Positions 6,450 through 11,372 of a stretch of 64,000 nt of DNA are shown here, in pieces; position 1 is the stretch's first letter, and every line of letters starts with the position of its first letter. The notes beneath the pieces were generated by a model. That model did not search any database. It saw only the letters and a program-made list of their open reading frames with translations, and was not told where the DNA came from. Source of the stretch: Saccharothrix australiensis (lineage in GTDB: Bacteria > Actinomycetota > Actinomycetes > Mycobacteriales > Pseudonocardiaceae); assembly GCF_003634935.1 (NCBI RefSeq), contig NZ_RBXO01000001.1, positions 434,001 to 498,000 of the forward strand. Reading direction: 5' to 3'. Made by a program: the position numbers and the translations under genes.

Positions 6450-7697
6450 CTATTTCAACGCGGCGCGGTCGATCGGGCACGACAGGCAACGCGGCCCTCC
6501 GCGACCGGAGCCCAGCTCCGATCCGCTGATCCGCAGGACCTCGACGCCGGCGTCCTCCAGCCGCGCGTTGGTCTCCACGTTGCGCTCGTAGGCGACCACC
6601 AGGCCGGGCCCGAGGGCGAGGGTGTTGTTGCCGTCGTCCCACTGCTCGCGCTCGGCGGTCACCGGGTCCAGCCCGGTGTCGATGACCCGGAGCCGGTCGA
6701 TGCCCATCGCGTCCGCCGCCGCCTCCAGGAACGGGGCGCGGTCCTCCACCACCACGCCGCCGTCGCCGTCGGGGCGCACCGGGTAGGCGAAGAGGTTGTC
6801 GCGCACCGCCGGGTACATCACCACCGCGTCGCGGTCGACCATCGTGCACACCGTGTCCAGGTGCATGGTGGCGCGCTCCTGGGTGATCGGCACCGCGAGG
6901 ACCGTGTGCGCCAGGCCGTCGCTGAGCGCCGAGCGGGCGAACGACTCCGCGCCCGCAGGCGTGGTGCGCTCGCCGACGCCGATCGCGAGCACGCCGGGCG
7001 CCAGCAGCAGGACGTCGCCGCCCTCCACGGGCGCGGAGTGCGCGCCGTAGGCGCGACCGGTCCGCCGGAACCTCGGGTGGTAGGCGTAGATGAGGTCGGT
7101 GAGCGCCGTCTCCCGGTCGCGGGCGGGCAGCGCGAGCGACGTGATGGCCACCCGGTCGCCCACCCAGACCGACGAGTCGCGGGTGAACAGCAGGTTCGGC
7201 AGCGGGTCGACGGCGAAGTCGTTCGGGTGGTGCATCTTGCGCACCAGGGACGCGCCCTCGGCGGCGGGCAGCTCCTCGAACGTCATGCCGGTCATCAGGG
7301 CCGTGGCGAGCTGCTCCGGCCCGATGGTCGACAGGTGCGAGCGCAGCGCGTCGGCCAGGTCGATGCCGAGGCGGCGCTCGTTGACGGCGCTGTGGATGCC
7401 GGCGATCCGGGCGCGGTCGTCGTGCAGCGCGGCCACCAGCAGGTCGGACAGGAGCAGGACCTCCGTGCCCCGGCCGCGGAGCACCTCGGCGAACGCGTCG
7501 TGCTCCTCCTGCGCGCGGTCCACCCACGGCACGCCGTCGAACAGGAGCTGGTCGTTGTTGCGCGGGGTCAGGCGCTTCAACTCCGCGCCCGGCCGGTGCA
7601 ACAGCACCGTGCGCAGGGGGCCGACCTCGCTGTCCACGCGGGGCGCCGGGTCCGGCGCGGCGTCCGGGGACTCCGTTCGGGCGATGTGCGCAGTCAC
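6450..7697 (-). CDS. arcA: arginine deiminase
   Basis: Converts L-arginine to citrulline and ammonia, the first step of the ADI pathway. The product is 415 residues if translation starts at the GTG at 7697, which places [15 protein letters not shown] at the N-terminus as in mycobacterial ArcA; the open frame extends 31 codons further upstream without a ribosome-binding site. Family motifs seen: [30 protein letters not shown] with the catalytic histidine, WDDGNN, and GGPRC with the nucleophile C404. No arcB or arcC is adjacent, so it may serve nitrogen release or pH defence rather than ATP generation. It is followed 96 bases later by ferritin on the same strand, but the iron boxes in the gap argue for a separate ferritin promoter. 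Confidence 0.92.
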
Positions 7698-7892
7698 GTC
7701 AGCGAGGGTAACCCGACGACGGAGGAACTCGCAGCTCAGAGCGGGGTGAATCAGTGGAGTTCGATCGTATGAAGGGCCTAATGCGGTCAATCGTTAAACG
7801 CGAAGGGGTCAACGGGTGGGAAACGTTGCGTGGTGAGGTGGACCCCCTTGCCGGCGCTGGGATGATCGAAGCTCAACCGGGGAGGGTTCTTG

Positions 7893-8252
7893 GTGCACTT
7901 GACGGTCGACGCGCCGGGTGGCGCCGCCGCCGCGACGGACATGCTGATCGGGGAACTGGTGCGAGGGGCGCGGGTGGACGCCCGGCGCGCACCGGCGACC
8001 CTGCCGGACGGCGCGAAGAGCGGCACGGGCCTGGCGGTGTCCGAGCTCCTGCTCAACGGCGCGGTGCCCGCCGCCGTCGCCGCGGCCGTGGCGTCGATCG
8101 TCACGGCCTTCGTGCAGCGCGGCAGCGCGCGCAAGGTGGTGATCAGGTCGGGCGAGGAGTCCATCACCGTGCAGGGCGCGGACGCCCGGACGCAGCGCGC
8201 GCTGGTGGAGGACTGGCTGAAGAAGCACGGCTCGCCCGCCGACGAGGGCTGA
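7893..8252 (+). CDS. effector-associated constant component 1 (EACC1)-like protein
   Basis: A 119-residue protein starting at the GTG 6 bases after GGGGAGG. Residues 18-50 are polar, 53-75 are a hydrophobic Ala/Val-rich helix that could span or touch the membrane, then come KVVIRSGEESITVQGAD and a C-terminal helix ending VEDWLKKHG. This layout, and its position directly before an effector gene, fit EACC1, a family named by the Aravind group as the invariant partner of variable effectors in actinobacterial conflict systems. The stop is one base before the start of the caspase-chaperonin gene, so the two are cotranslated. Likely role: tether or regulator of the effector (inference). Confidence 0.72.
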   Translation: MHLTVDAPGGAAAATDMLIGELVRGARVDARRAPATLPDGAKSGTGLAVSELLLNGAVPAAVAAAVASIVTAFVQRGSARKVVIRSGEESITVQGADARTQRALVEDWLKKHGSPADEG

Positions 8253-8253
8253 G

Positions 8254-10470
8254 GTGGGCCGGTACGCGCTGCTCGTCGCCACCGGCGAGTACGCCGACGT
8301 CCGGCTGAGCCGGCTGCGCGCGCCGTCGCAGGACGTGGAGCGGCTGGCGGCGCTGCTGGAGGACCCCGGGGTCGGCGGGTTCGCCGGGGTGCGGGTGCTG
8401 CGGGACGCCGCCGACCACGAGATCCGGCGCGCGGTGGAGGACGTGCTGGCGGCGCGCACGCCGGACGACCTGGTGCTGCTGTACTTCTCGTGCCACGGCC
8501 TGACCACGGCGGCGCGGCGGCTGTACTTCGCGGCGGCCAACACCGTGCAGGACCGGCCCGCCGGCACGGCGATACCCCGGTCGTTCCTCAACGAGCAGCT
8601 GGAGGACTGCCGGGCCTCCGGGCGCGTGCTGATGCTGGACTGCTGCTTCAGCGGCGCGTACGTGGAGGGGTTCAAGGACGCCTCGTCGGCGGTGCTGGAC
8701 GGCGGCGGCGAGGGGTACGTGGTGCTGACCGCGTCCAACGCCTACGAGTACGCGTTCGAAGAGGACACGGTGTCGTTGGAGGCGCCGCGGGCGTCGCTGT
8801 TCACCGACGTGGTGATCGAGGGGCTGTCGAGCGGCGCGGCCGACCTCGACGGCGACGGGTGGGTCGACGTCAACGAGCTGTTCTCGTACGCGTTCCGGGA
8901 GGTGCGCGGGCGGCGGCCGGACCAGACGCCGCAGTTCTTCGCCCAGTCCGCCGGTCCGCCGCTGCGGATCGCCCGCGCCGGCGGTGCGGTGCCGTCGGTG
9001 GTGCGGCGGTCCGCGTCCTACACGTCCGGCCAGCTGCTGGTGGCGCGCGGGTTCCGGGCCGCGGCGGAACCGGTGTGCCGGACGCTGGGGCCGTGGGGCA
9101 GGCGGTCGGTCGTGCTGGTGGACGGTCGACCGGTGGAGCTGGCGGACTCGGCGGCCATCGCGTCGGCGTTCCAGCCGGACGACCCGCGTGACTCGCTGGG
9201 CGCGTCCTACGTGCGCGAGCTGATCTCCGAGGTGCACGCCACGTGCGGTGACGGCGGCGCGTCGGCGGTGGCCGTGGCGCGCGGCGCGATCACGCGGCTG
9301 GTGGAGGCCATGCGCGACGGGCACGACCCCGTCCGGCTCCTGCACGGCGTGCGGGCGGCGGCCGACGCGGCGGACCGGCTCATCCGGTCGGTGGCGGAGC
9401 CGCTGGAGCGGGGTGACGTGGCGCGGCTGGCGGCGGCGTCGGCCGCGAGCGACCGGATCGGCGCCGTGGTGGGCGAGGTGGTGGCGGTGACCGGGCGGTT
9501 CGGCGCGGTGCTGGTCGAGCCGGGGCTGCGGGCCGGTGTCGACCACGAGGTCGTGCCGGGGCTGCGGTTGGAGAGCGGGTACGTGACGGCGCTGTGCGTG
9601 ACGGACCCGGTGCGGCGGGAGGCCGTGCTGGCGGACGCGCGGGTGCTGCTGTTCGCCGGGCGGTTGCCGGACCGCGCGCTGGCGCTCGTGGACCTGATGG
9701 GCCGCGGTTCGCCGCTGCTCGTGGTGTGCGCCGAGGTGCCAGAGTCCGTGCTGGGCGCGCTGCTGCGGTCCGACCGGCCGGTGGTCGTGGTGTGCGCCGA
9801 GGTGACGGAGCGGCTGTCGGCCGTGGTGGGCGGCGAGGTGCTGGACGACGACCTGCTCTACCGGGCGGACGCCCATTCGCTGGGGCACGCGGCGAAGGTC
9901 GTGGTGACCGAGTGGGACACGACGGTGATCGGGTCGGCGCGGCCGTCGGCGGGTGACGCCGGCCAGGACGTGGCCGGGGTCATCCGCGCGCCCGCCGACG
10001 CCCTGGCGCGGACCGAGCGGGCGGTGCGGGCGGTGCGGAGCGCGGCGCGGGACGGCGTGCTGCGCGGCGCGGGCGTGGGGCTGGGTGAGATCGGGGCGCG
10101 ACTCGCCGACGAGGCGCCGGTCGCCGGGGGCCCGGTCGCGCCGGCGGGGCTCACGCGCCTGGCCGGGTCGGCGGGTGCCGCGGGCTCGGCCGGGCAGGCG
10201 GACCCTGCGGTCGCGGGTCCGGTGGGGTCGGGTCCGGTGGGGTCGGGCTCGGTGGGGTCGGGCTCGGTGGCGGCGGCGCGGGTGGCGGCCGAGGCCGCGG
10301 GGTGGCGGGCGCTCGCGGGTGCGCTGGGTGAGCCGGCCCGGTGCATCGCCGAGAACTCGGCCGTGGAGCCGCACGACCTCGACCCGGCGCTGATCGACTC
10401 GGCGGGGACGGCCCGCGCCGTGGTGGCCGCCGCCGCGCGGACCGCCGCCCGGTTCCTGCTGGTGGCGTAG
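8254..10470 (+). CDS. caspase (peptidase C14) fused to a GroEL-like chaperonin
   Basis: A 738-residue, two-part protein. Residues 1-240 are a caspase-fold peptidase with catalytic H81 (YFSCHG) and C131 (LDCCFSG), plus a canonical EF-hand-type loop at 197-208 (DLDGDGWVDVNE), as in other actinobacterial C14 peptidases. Residues 255-735 align in order with GroEL: TLGPWGRR (278-285), D298, GDGGAS with D333, LRLESGYVT (437-445), VVVTEWDTTVIG (549-560), ADALARTERAV (581-591), GAGVGL and DLDPALI with D710. The aspartates equivalent to GroEL D52, D87, D398 and D495 are all kept, so ATP hydrolysis is plausible. A 15-base repeat encodes a GPVGS linker near residue 660. With EACC1 it forms a probable two-gene defence or programmed-death module: chaperonin as sensor or switch, caspase as effector (inference). 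Confidence 0.82.
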   Translation: MGRYALLVATGEYADVRLSRLRAPSQDVERLAALLEDPGVGGFAGVRVLRDAADHEIRRAVEDVLAARTPDDLVLLYFSCHGLTTAARRLYFAAANTVQDRPAGTAIPRSFLNEQLEDCRASGRVLMLDCCFSGAYVEGFKDASSAVLDGGGEGYVVLTASNAYEYAFEEDTVSLEAPRASLFTDVVIEGLSSGAADLDGDGWVDVNELFSYAFREVRGRRPDQTPQFFAQSAGPPLRIARAGGAVPSVVRRSASYTSGQLLVARGFRAAAEPVCRTLGPWGRRSVVLVDGRPVELADSAAIASAFQPDDPRDSLGASYVRELISEVHATCGDGGASAVAVARGAITRLVEAMRDGHDPVRLLHGVRAAADAADRLIRSVAEPLERGDVARLAAASAASDRIGAVVGEVVAVTGRFGAVLVEPGLRAGVDHEVVPGLRLESGYVTALCVTDPVRREAVLADARVLLFAGRLPDRALALVDLMGRGSPLLVVCAEVPESVLGALLRSDRPVVVVCAEVTERLSAVVGGEVLDDDLLYRADAHSLGHAAKVVVTEWDTTVIGSARPSAGDAGQDVAGVIRAPADALARTERAVRAVRSAARDGVLRGAGVGLGEIGARLADEAPVAGGPVAPAGLTRLAGSAGAAGSAGQADPAVAGPVGSGPVGSGSVGSGSVAAARVAAEAAGWRALAGALGEPARCIAENSAVEPHDLDPALIDSAGTARAVVAAAARTAARFLLVA
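10216..10270 (+). repeat. 15-base in-frame repeat encoding a Gly-Pro-Val-Gly-Ser linker
   Basis: Three full units (GGTCCGGTGGGGTCG, the same again, GGCTCGGTGGGGTCG) and a partial fourth lie in the 3' part of the caspase-chaperonin gene. In protein this is a flexible GPVGS/GSVGS segment between the chaperonin's GAGVGL element and its last helices, where GroEL has an equatorial loop. The in-frame unit allows length change without loss of the gene. Confidence 0.8.
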
Positions 10471-10598
10471 CCGGCGGTGGCTCGTCCGAGCGAACCGCTC
10501 CACACGTTCGTAGTCCCGGTCGAGGGGTGCCGCGCCGCCCTGGCGGATAGTCGGGTGCGGACGGCGGAGTGCGGCCGGGGACGACGCGGAGGTGCGCG

Positions 10599-11372
10599 AT
10601 GCGGGGCAGGTCGAGTCTGATCGCGGCGGTGGTCGCCGTGCTGGTGGCGACGGCCGCGCCGGCGGCGGCCGGGCCGCGCATCGTCGGCGGCGGTGTGGCG
10701 ACCGGCGACTACCCGTGGATCGTCGCGATCTACGACGGTGGCGGCGTGCACTACTGCGGGGGCTCGCTCTTCCGGGCGCGGTGGGTGATCACGGCCGCGC
10801 ACTGCGTCGACACGCCCGAGCCGACCGGCGGACCCGGTGACATGAAGCTGCGCGTGGGGTCCAAGGACCTGCGGCGGGGTGGTGTGACCGTCGGGTGGGA
10901 GCGCGCGATCCGGCACCCGCGGTACGACGGCGACAAGTACGTGCACGACATCGCGCTGATCAAGCTGGCGCGGCCGGTGGCGGAGCGGCGCTCCGTCGAC
11001 CTCGCGCCGAACCGGGACTGGGACGGCGAGGTGCTCACGCTGCTCGGCTGGGGCCAGACCTGCCCCGCGTACCAGTGCGACCGGGGATCACGCGTGCTCA
11101 AGGCGTTGGAGGCGCGGGCGCTGTCACCCGGCGCCTGCCACTCGCGGGCGACGGGGTTCGAGCCGGACACCGAGCTGTGCCTGGACTCCACACCGCAGGC
11201 CACCGCGTGCTACGGCGACTCGGGCGGCCCGGCGCTGTGGCGCGGCGACGGGACGTGGCGACTGGTAGGCGTGACCACGCACGGCAGCGAGTCGTGCGGC
11301 GACGAGGACACCATCCACACGAAGGTCCCCGCCTACCGCAACTGGCTGAACGCAACCACCGAAGGCCACTAG
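10599..11372 (+). CDS. secreted trypsin-fold serine protease
   Basis: A 257-residue S1-family protease. The ATG at 10599 follows CGGAGG. A signal peptide covers about residues 1-24 and the mature chain would begin at I28 in IVGG after a very short propeptide. The catalytic triad is complete: H68 (TAAHC), D117 (HDIAL) and S208 (GDSGGP). Six residues before the serine, where trypsin has the aspartate that selects Arg/Lys, this enzyme has T202, so trypsin-like specificity is not expected. Several cysteines are positioned for disulphides. It lies 128 bases after the caspase-chaperonin gene; export makes a shared function unlikely. Confidence 0.9.
   Translation: MRGRSSLIAAVVAVLVATAAPAAAGPRIVGGGVATGDYPWIVAIYDGGGVHYCGGSLFRARWVITAAHCVDTPEPTGGPGDMKLRVGSKDLRRGGVTVGWERAIRHPRYDGDKYVHDIALIKLARPVAERRSVDLAPNRDWDGEVLTLLGWGQTCPAYQCDRGSRVLKALEARALSPGACHSRATGFEPDTELCLDSTPQATACYGDSGGPALWRGDGTWRLVGVTTHGSESCGDEDTIHTKVPAYRNWLNATTEGH

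Follow-up and report, generated by a model that had tools for sequence, protein, structure and literature searches.

A degenerate group I chaperonin joined to a caspase in Saccharothrix: a possible GroEL-derived decoy in an EACC1 conflict module

We identified, in a stretch of 64,000 nucleotides (contig positions 434,001-498,000; hereafter the window) from the 7.86 Mb genome of Saccharothrix australiensis, an EACC1-family gene directly followed by a gene in which a caspase is fused to a degenerate group I chaperonin. We tentatively interpret the pair as an EACC1-caspase conflict module of two genes, in which the variable C-terminal part would be an integrated decoy derived from GroEL, a reading that may well prove right although we would not yet call it probable. 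A decoy that does not fold proteins is favoured because the counterparts of GroEL D398 and T90 and the NAAT loop are lost while the same genome keeps two full GroEL genes. The chaperonin head is regarded as the candidate recognition surface because its apical part is only 54-78% identical between close relatives, versus 98-100% for true GroEL.

The gene pair and the EACC1-caspase class

The EACC1-family gene (7890-8252, +; 120 aa) begins with a TTG at 7890, which revises the start at 7893 given in the original prediction, and the fusion gene (8254-10470, +; 738 aa) indeed follows it after a single base. Overall, what that prediction had observed is partly confirmed and its interpretation partly supported: the two-domain architecture, the coupling to EACC1 and the place among actinobacterial conflict systems all find support in the family matches, the fold and the upstream gene. 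Chance similarity or a spurious open reading frame is ruled out by the family and fold matches, the existence of relatives and purifying selection.

The caspase domain (residues 1-240; 8254-8973, +) matches NF047832, the EACC1-associated caspase model, with an E of 8.3e-49 (165.9 bits; cut-off 140). For comparison we used 22 sequences, namely 20 from Saccharothrix including that of the window, one from Kutzneria (L064) and one from a Streptosporangiaceae MAG (L065). The complete caspase dyad and the EF-hand-type loop that had been described for the window's protein are both present: H81 (8494-8496, +) is found in all 22 sequences and C131 (8644-8646, +) in 21, while D197, D199, D201 and E208 of the loop (residues 197-208; 8842-8877, +) are kept in 22/22. 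The predicted model of the fusion is poor at residues 80-180 and has a pLDDT < 50 over the linker region 225-255, and a sequence search of solved structures returned a single row, MALT1, at a weak E of 0.9. Between the caspase and the chaperonin lies a variable linker (residues 241-255; 8974-9018, +) with a basic pair, R251-R252 (9004-9009, +). R251 is present in 19/19 Saccharothrix copies that retain C131, and the corresponding residues are K251-R252 in L064 and A251-R252 in L065; a basic residue thus occupies position 251 or 252 in each of the 21 sequences with C131, and neither position in the Cys-less copy (L028). Judged from this pattern, the pair is a possible candidate site of self-cleavage.

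The Pfam family EACC1 (PF19953) matches 13 of the 18 upstream orthologs scanned, with a best E of 6.9e-5; the window's own EACC1 protein matched no family of Pfam, NCBIfam or PADLOC with an E of 0.1 or less. The latter contains one hydrophobic helix rich in small residues (Kyte-Doolittle 2.06 over 19 residues), as EACC1 proteins are described to do (Kaur et al. 2020, PMC7159879), and values of 1.71-2.07 over 19 residues, by hydropathy alone, were obtained for 19 sequences.

Because of the NF047832 and PF19953 matches and the EACC1 gene directly upstream, we assign the pair to the actinobacterial EACC1-caspase 'System 4', in which a 5' EACC1 gene precedes a 3' gene whose product begins with a caspase and ends in a variable domain (Kaur et al. 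2020, PMC7159879). According to the main text of that study, up to 50 C-terminal domains occur, e.g. STAND, WD-type repeats, Clp, JAB and EF-Tu; inactive versions of cellular enzymes are proposed to be decoys, the caspase is proposed to deploy the C-terminal part through auto-proteolysis, and the defence role of the systems is itself a prediction. The fusion resembles System 4 in its 5' EACC1, its N-terminal NF047832-type caspase with a His-Cys dyad and its variable C-terminal domain, but here that domain is a chaperonin. The class is already known. Its chaperonin variant is not mentioned by Kaur et al. (2020) in their main text, where 'chaperonin', 'GroEL', 'Hsp60' and 'TCP1' do not occur, though the supplements may include it. 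The same genome encodes further EACC1-type caspases (L001, L002 and L004, the last under the family cut-off), which share the caspase class with the fusion but differ in their C-terminal parts: beta-propeller/WD40 models in L002, FGE-sulfatase in L004 and no further Pfam family in L001. Cyanobacterial caspase homologs with prefoldin or AAA domains (Asplund-Samuelsson 2012, PMC3501461) also have a partner annotated as chaperone, but the domains are unrelated to ours, and 'GroEL', 'Cpn60' and 'TCP1' are absent from the main text of that paper. A literature search of the main texts of open-licence PMC papers found no caspase-chaperonin fusion, nor did it find an experimental paper on the EACC1-caspase class.

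Distribution and genomic setting

The fusion occurs as one open frame, from residue 1 to at least 617, in 19 of the 23 other genomes of the genus, and the frame is open in all 20 Saccharothrix copies. Four of the 24 genus genomes (G004, G007, G012 and G014) do not have the locus; in these, both flanking genes lie about 0.8-1.0 kb apart with nothing matching the pair in between. Among 150 genomes of the family, a full-span match was obtained in five, of which four belong to Saccharothrix and the fifth is G058 (the Kutzneria viridogrisea locus L064, at the same coordinates), the remaining matches listed being to the caspase only. Among 200 genomes of the order the whole model was spanned in the own genome only, with the other matches listed confined to the chaperonin part, and among 296 genomes of the class a joint match to caspase and equatorial part at E <= 1e-80 was likewise restricted to the own genome. 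A wide family was thus sought at family, order and class level and not found. Scanning named genome contigs yielded 13 loci (11 from Saccharothrix, one from Kutzneria and one from the Streptosporangiaceae MAG) with two patterns built from the caspase-chaperonin family itself, which unrelated caspase-chaperonin fusions would escape. The architecture, which the original prediction had proposed to look for in other actinobacteria, recurs beside an EACC1 gene in Saccharothrix, Kutzneria and the MAG: EACC1 is 5' of the caspase in 13/13 named loci, a set that overlaps the 20 Saccharothrix loci, of which 19 have it directly 5'.

A phage or plasmid origin finds no support in the corresponding collections: 80% coverage of the query was reached by none of 72,556 plasmid records and none of 50,697 phage records, and no full-length relative was found in viral contigs. 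As a separate observation, the Listeria and Enterococcus 'phage' records H21-H23, H28 and H29 contain GroEL-like sequence, which may be host DNA within phage records; four of the five are under 9 kb.

In 11/11 named Saccharothrix the pair is situated between an adjoining arginine deiminase gene and, further on, a CAAX-protease gene, with no recognised defence island at the locus; at the Kutzneria and Streptosporangiaceae MAG loci, neither of these two neighbours was found. Such a fixed locus, together with the lack of phage, plasmid and viral relatives, also fits an ordinary chromosomal role. The interval between the arginine deiminase and CAAX-protease genes (window 6450-7790, -; loci L082-L085) has gained and lost genes in Saccharothrix, its variants being the presence or absence of the pair and of a PAF-acetylhydrolase-like gene, for which three of the 11 named Saccharothrix gave no match. 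Directly downstream of the fusion, the window contains a trypsin-family protease gene (10569-11372, +; PF00089, 1.2e-39), a lineage-specific addition at this site since no relative was found in any of the 13 named loci.

A degenerate group I chaperonin with a fast-changing head

The predicted chaperonin fold after the caspase is borne out by comparison of the predicted structure with GroEL and by a PF00118 match (E 2.8e-15). All three GroEL domains are present in the same order (equatorial, intermediate, apical) by homology and predicted fold, and the equatorial fold is predicted well. Group II chaperonins rank lower, with a Z of 27.9 and below in the structure comparison and weaker E values in the sequence search. 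In the window, the first equatorial half (residues 256-383; 9019-9402, +) is followed by the first part of the intermediate domain with a shortened apical head (residues 384-572; 9403-9969, +) and by the second intermediate/equatorial half (residues 573-738; 9970-10467, +). The last of these includes a low-complexity, probably disordered insert (residues 627-668; 10132-10257, +; pLDDT < 50) that is longest in the window's copy and shorter or missing in the other aligned copies.

Only part of the nucleotide site is conserved. Besides the fold, domain order and TLGP motif, the fusion shares with GroEL/Cpn60 the counterparts of D52 (D298; 9145-9147, +), D87 (D333; 9250-9252, +), G88 and D495 (D715; 10396-10398, +), which are invariant in 22/22 sequences, and T30 is kept in 21. 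The invariance of these residues suggests continued binding of nucleotide or metal. Of the four aspartates that had been reported as kept, however, the D398 counterpart is an arginine in the window (R589; 10018-10020, +) and in none of the 22 sequences an aspartate (20 have Arg and two have Ala or Gly). In addition, the T89 counterpart is Gly or Ala and that of T90 is Ala in 22/22, the adenine loop NAAT (GroEL 479-482) is absent in 20/20 Saccharothrix and altered in L064 and L065, and all chains compared stop at the helix preceding GroEL's last strand. The GroEL mutant D398A binds ATP normally and has 3% of wild-type ATPase, but still encapsulates and folds proteins (PMC3326522), so that the change at this position alone would not end folding; the fusion has the same residue affected, mostly by Arg, plus the further nucleotide-site changes. 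Loss of the D398 residue argues against cycling, and the T89/T90, NAAT loop and last-strand losses argue against normal folding. An active foldase, and with it the ATP-driven folding switch of the original prediction, is therefore not supported.

At the eight positions that we take to form the GroEL groove (Y199, Y203, F204, L234, L237, L259, V263 and V264), counterparts are mostly kept for Y199, F204, L237, L259 and V263 in 18 sequences, L028 excluded; in the same set the L234 counterpart is hydrophobic in 4/18, the residue at Y203 varies and V264 has no counterpart owing to a deletion. The apical head could possibly bind foreign or unfolded protein, which is a component of the decoy reading.

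Rates of change differ along the gene. In nine close pairs, the caspase had an omega (NG86 counts) of 0.05-0.29, the first equatorial half one of 0.12-0.57 and the C-terminal part of the chaperonin one of 0.14-0.53; the intermediate and apical segment reached 0.56-1.36, calculated with its own or the whole-gene dS. The caspase and the first equatorial half are thus under constraint, next to an intermediate-apical head that changes fast. The apical domain of true GroEL, used as a control in the same nine genome pairs, had a dN <= 0.010. Positive selection on the head is not proved: none of the nine pairs has a 95% interval entirely above 1, and in five of them one or both estimates have an interval entirely below 1, so that some of the change is explained by relaxed constraint.

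Possible roles of the fusion

Under the decoy reading, the chaperonin part would no longer perform protein folding, and the surface of its apical head would resemble, or compete with, the host GroEL used by phages. A protein engaging the head would, together with EACC1 at the membrane, switch the caspase on; the active caspase might then cut cellular targets, perhaps including its own basic linker at R251/R252, and the infected cell would be stopped. GroEL was discovered through its requirement in phage assembly (PMC5143341), and a chaperonin in this position agrees with the decoy proposal of Kaur et al. (PMC7159879). Several observations speak against the reading: besides the fixed chromosomal locus and the relaxed constraint on the head, hydrophobicity is lost at two groove positions (L234 and Y203) and V264 is deleted, and the invariant counterparts of D52, D87, G88 and D495 point to retained nucleotide or metal binding. 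If the reading is true, folding machinery would be linked to programmed death or immunity in bacteria, and the EACC1-caspase class would gain a concrete trigger, as GroEL clients and phage proteins are ligands that can be tried. Plant immune receptors carry integrated decoys, to which the module would be a bacterial parallel.

Alternatively, the chaperonin part may be a released effector: EACC1 would sense the trigger, the caspase would cleave the linker at its basic residues, and the chaperonin part, once free, would be a dominant-negative trap, either retaining unfolded or virion proteins or poisoning host GroEL. Auto-proteolytic release is what has been proposed for EACC1 systems (Kaur et al., PMC7159879), orthocaspases cleave after basic residues (PMC6426788), and the basic residue at 251 or 252 accompanies C131 in 21/21 sequences and is missing from the Cys-less copy. 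Nonetheless, we consider this somewhat unlikely. Basic residues are common in linkers, a free trap needs no fast-changing head unless its targets change, and co-assembly with host rings is doubtful because the chain is without GroEL's last strand. That same truncation, seen in every chain compared, speaks against the equatorial domains forming a ring that gathers caspases in the manner of an apoptosome, with a head of little importance; the equatorial fold is predicted well and its first half is constrained, but we think such a scaffold improbable.

The pair might also serve the cell without any invader, as a proteostasis or developmental death switch: unfolded proteins of the cell itself would be sensed by the head, and the caspase would have its role under stress or during mycelial development. 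The chaperonin origin, the fixed and largely vertically inherited chromosomal locus in Saccharothrix and the failure to find a mobile context when one was looked for are in its favour, yet a sensor of self proteins need not evolve so fast, as true GroEL does not, and the locus is missing from 4/24 genus genomes with its neighbours in place; on balance this is unlikely, if less so than the scaffold. Least credible of all is a decaying relic without present function. A head omega near 1, deletions and a copy in G018 that has lost both the Cys and EACC1 could be read as decay, but the frame is open in 20/20 Saccharothrix copies, the low omega of the caspase and of both outer chaperonin parts indicates constraint, and the nucleotide-site residues are invariant.

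Two unusual copies also speak for the decoy reading. In G018, only 113 nt separate the start of the caspase gene (L028) from the first residue aligned in the arginine deiminase, too little for an EACC1 gene, and a frame resembling EACC1 was not seen there. In this copy C131 is replaced by Arg, the linker Arg is gone and the apical part is reduced. G018 groups with three locus-less genomes in a single-gene, midpoint-rooted tree, at 92/83, which is below the tool's mark for firm support. Since the copy without EACC1 is also without the catalytic Cys and the linker Arg, this one case suggests a functional unit made up of EACC1, the protease and the basic linker.

The second copy, L065 of the Streptosporangiaceae MAG, has its whole gene at 7176-9503, and the host groEL of the same MAG is split across contigs. 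Compared with a Pseudonocardiaceae GroEL, L065 shows the opposite pattern to the Saccharothrix copies, being 72% identical in the first intermediate part and 75% in the apical part, versus 34% and 32% in the equatorial halves, with shifts near GroEL 150 and 380, and 353 nt are 91.8% identical to the partial groEL of the same MAG. We read this single MAG as a head apparently replaced from host groEL on an equatorial base that retains the family's own changes. Domain-exact gene conversion from host groEL to the caspase-chaperonin gene is possible, and a chimeric assembly is unlikely because the frame is open across both junctions. The pair could accordingly be an immune receptor made of a non-cycling chaperonin and a caspase, with an integrated GroEL decoy as its evolvable and replaceable head, which would have diversified in Saccharothrix and been renewed from host groEL in the Streptosporangiaceae lineage; this fuller version is possible, though we regard it as doubtful. 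Finally, the Streptosporangiaceae MAG also encodes a stand-alone GroEL paralog (L088; G607:C71:2120-3634), whose apical domain is 41-47% identical to those of the three other GroELs compared.
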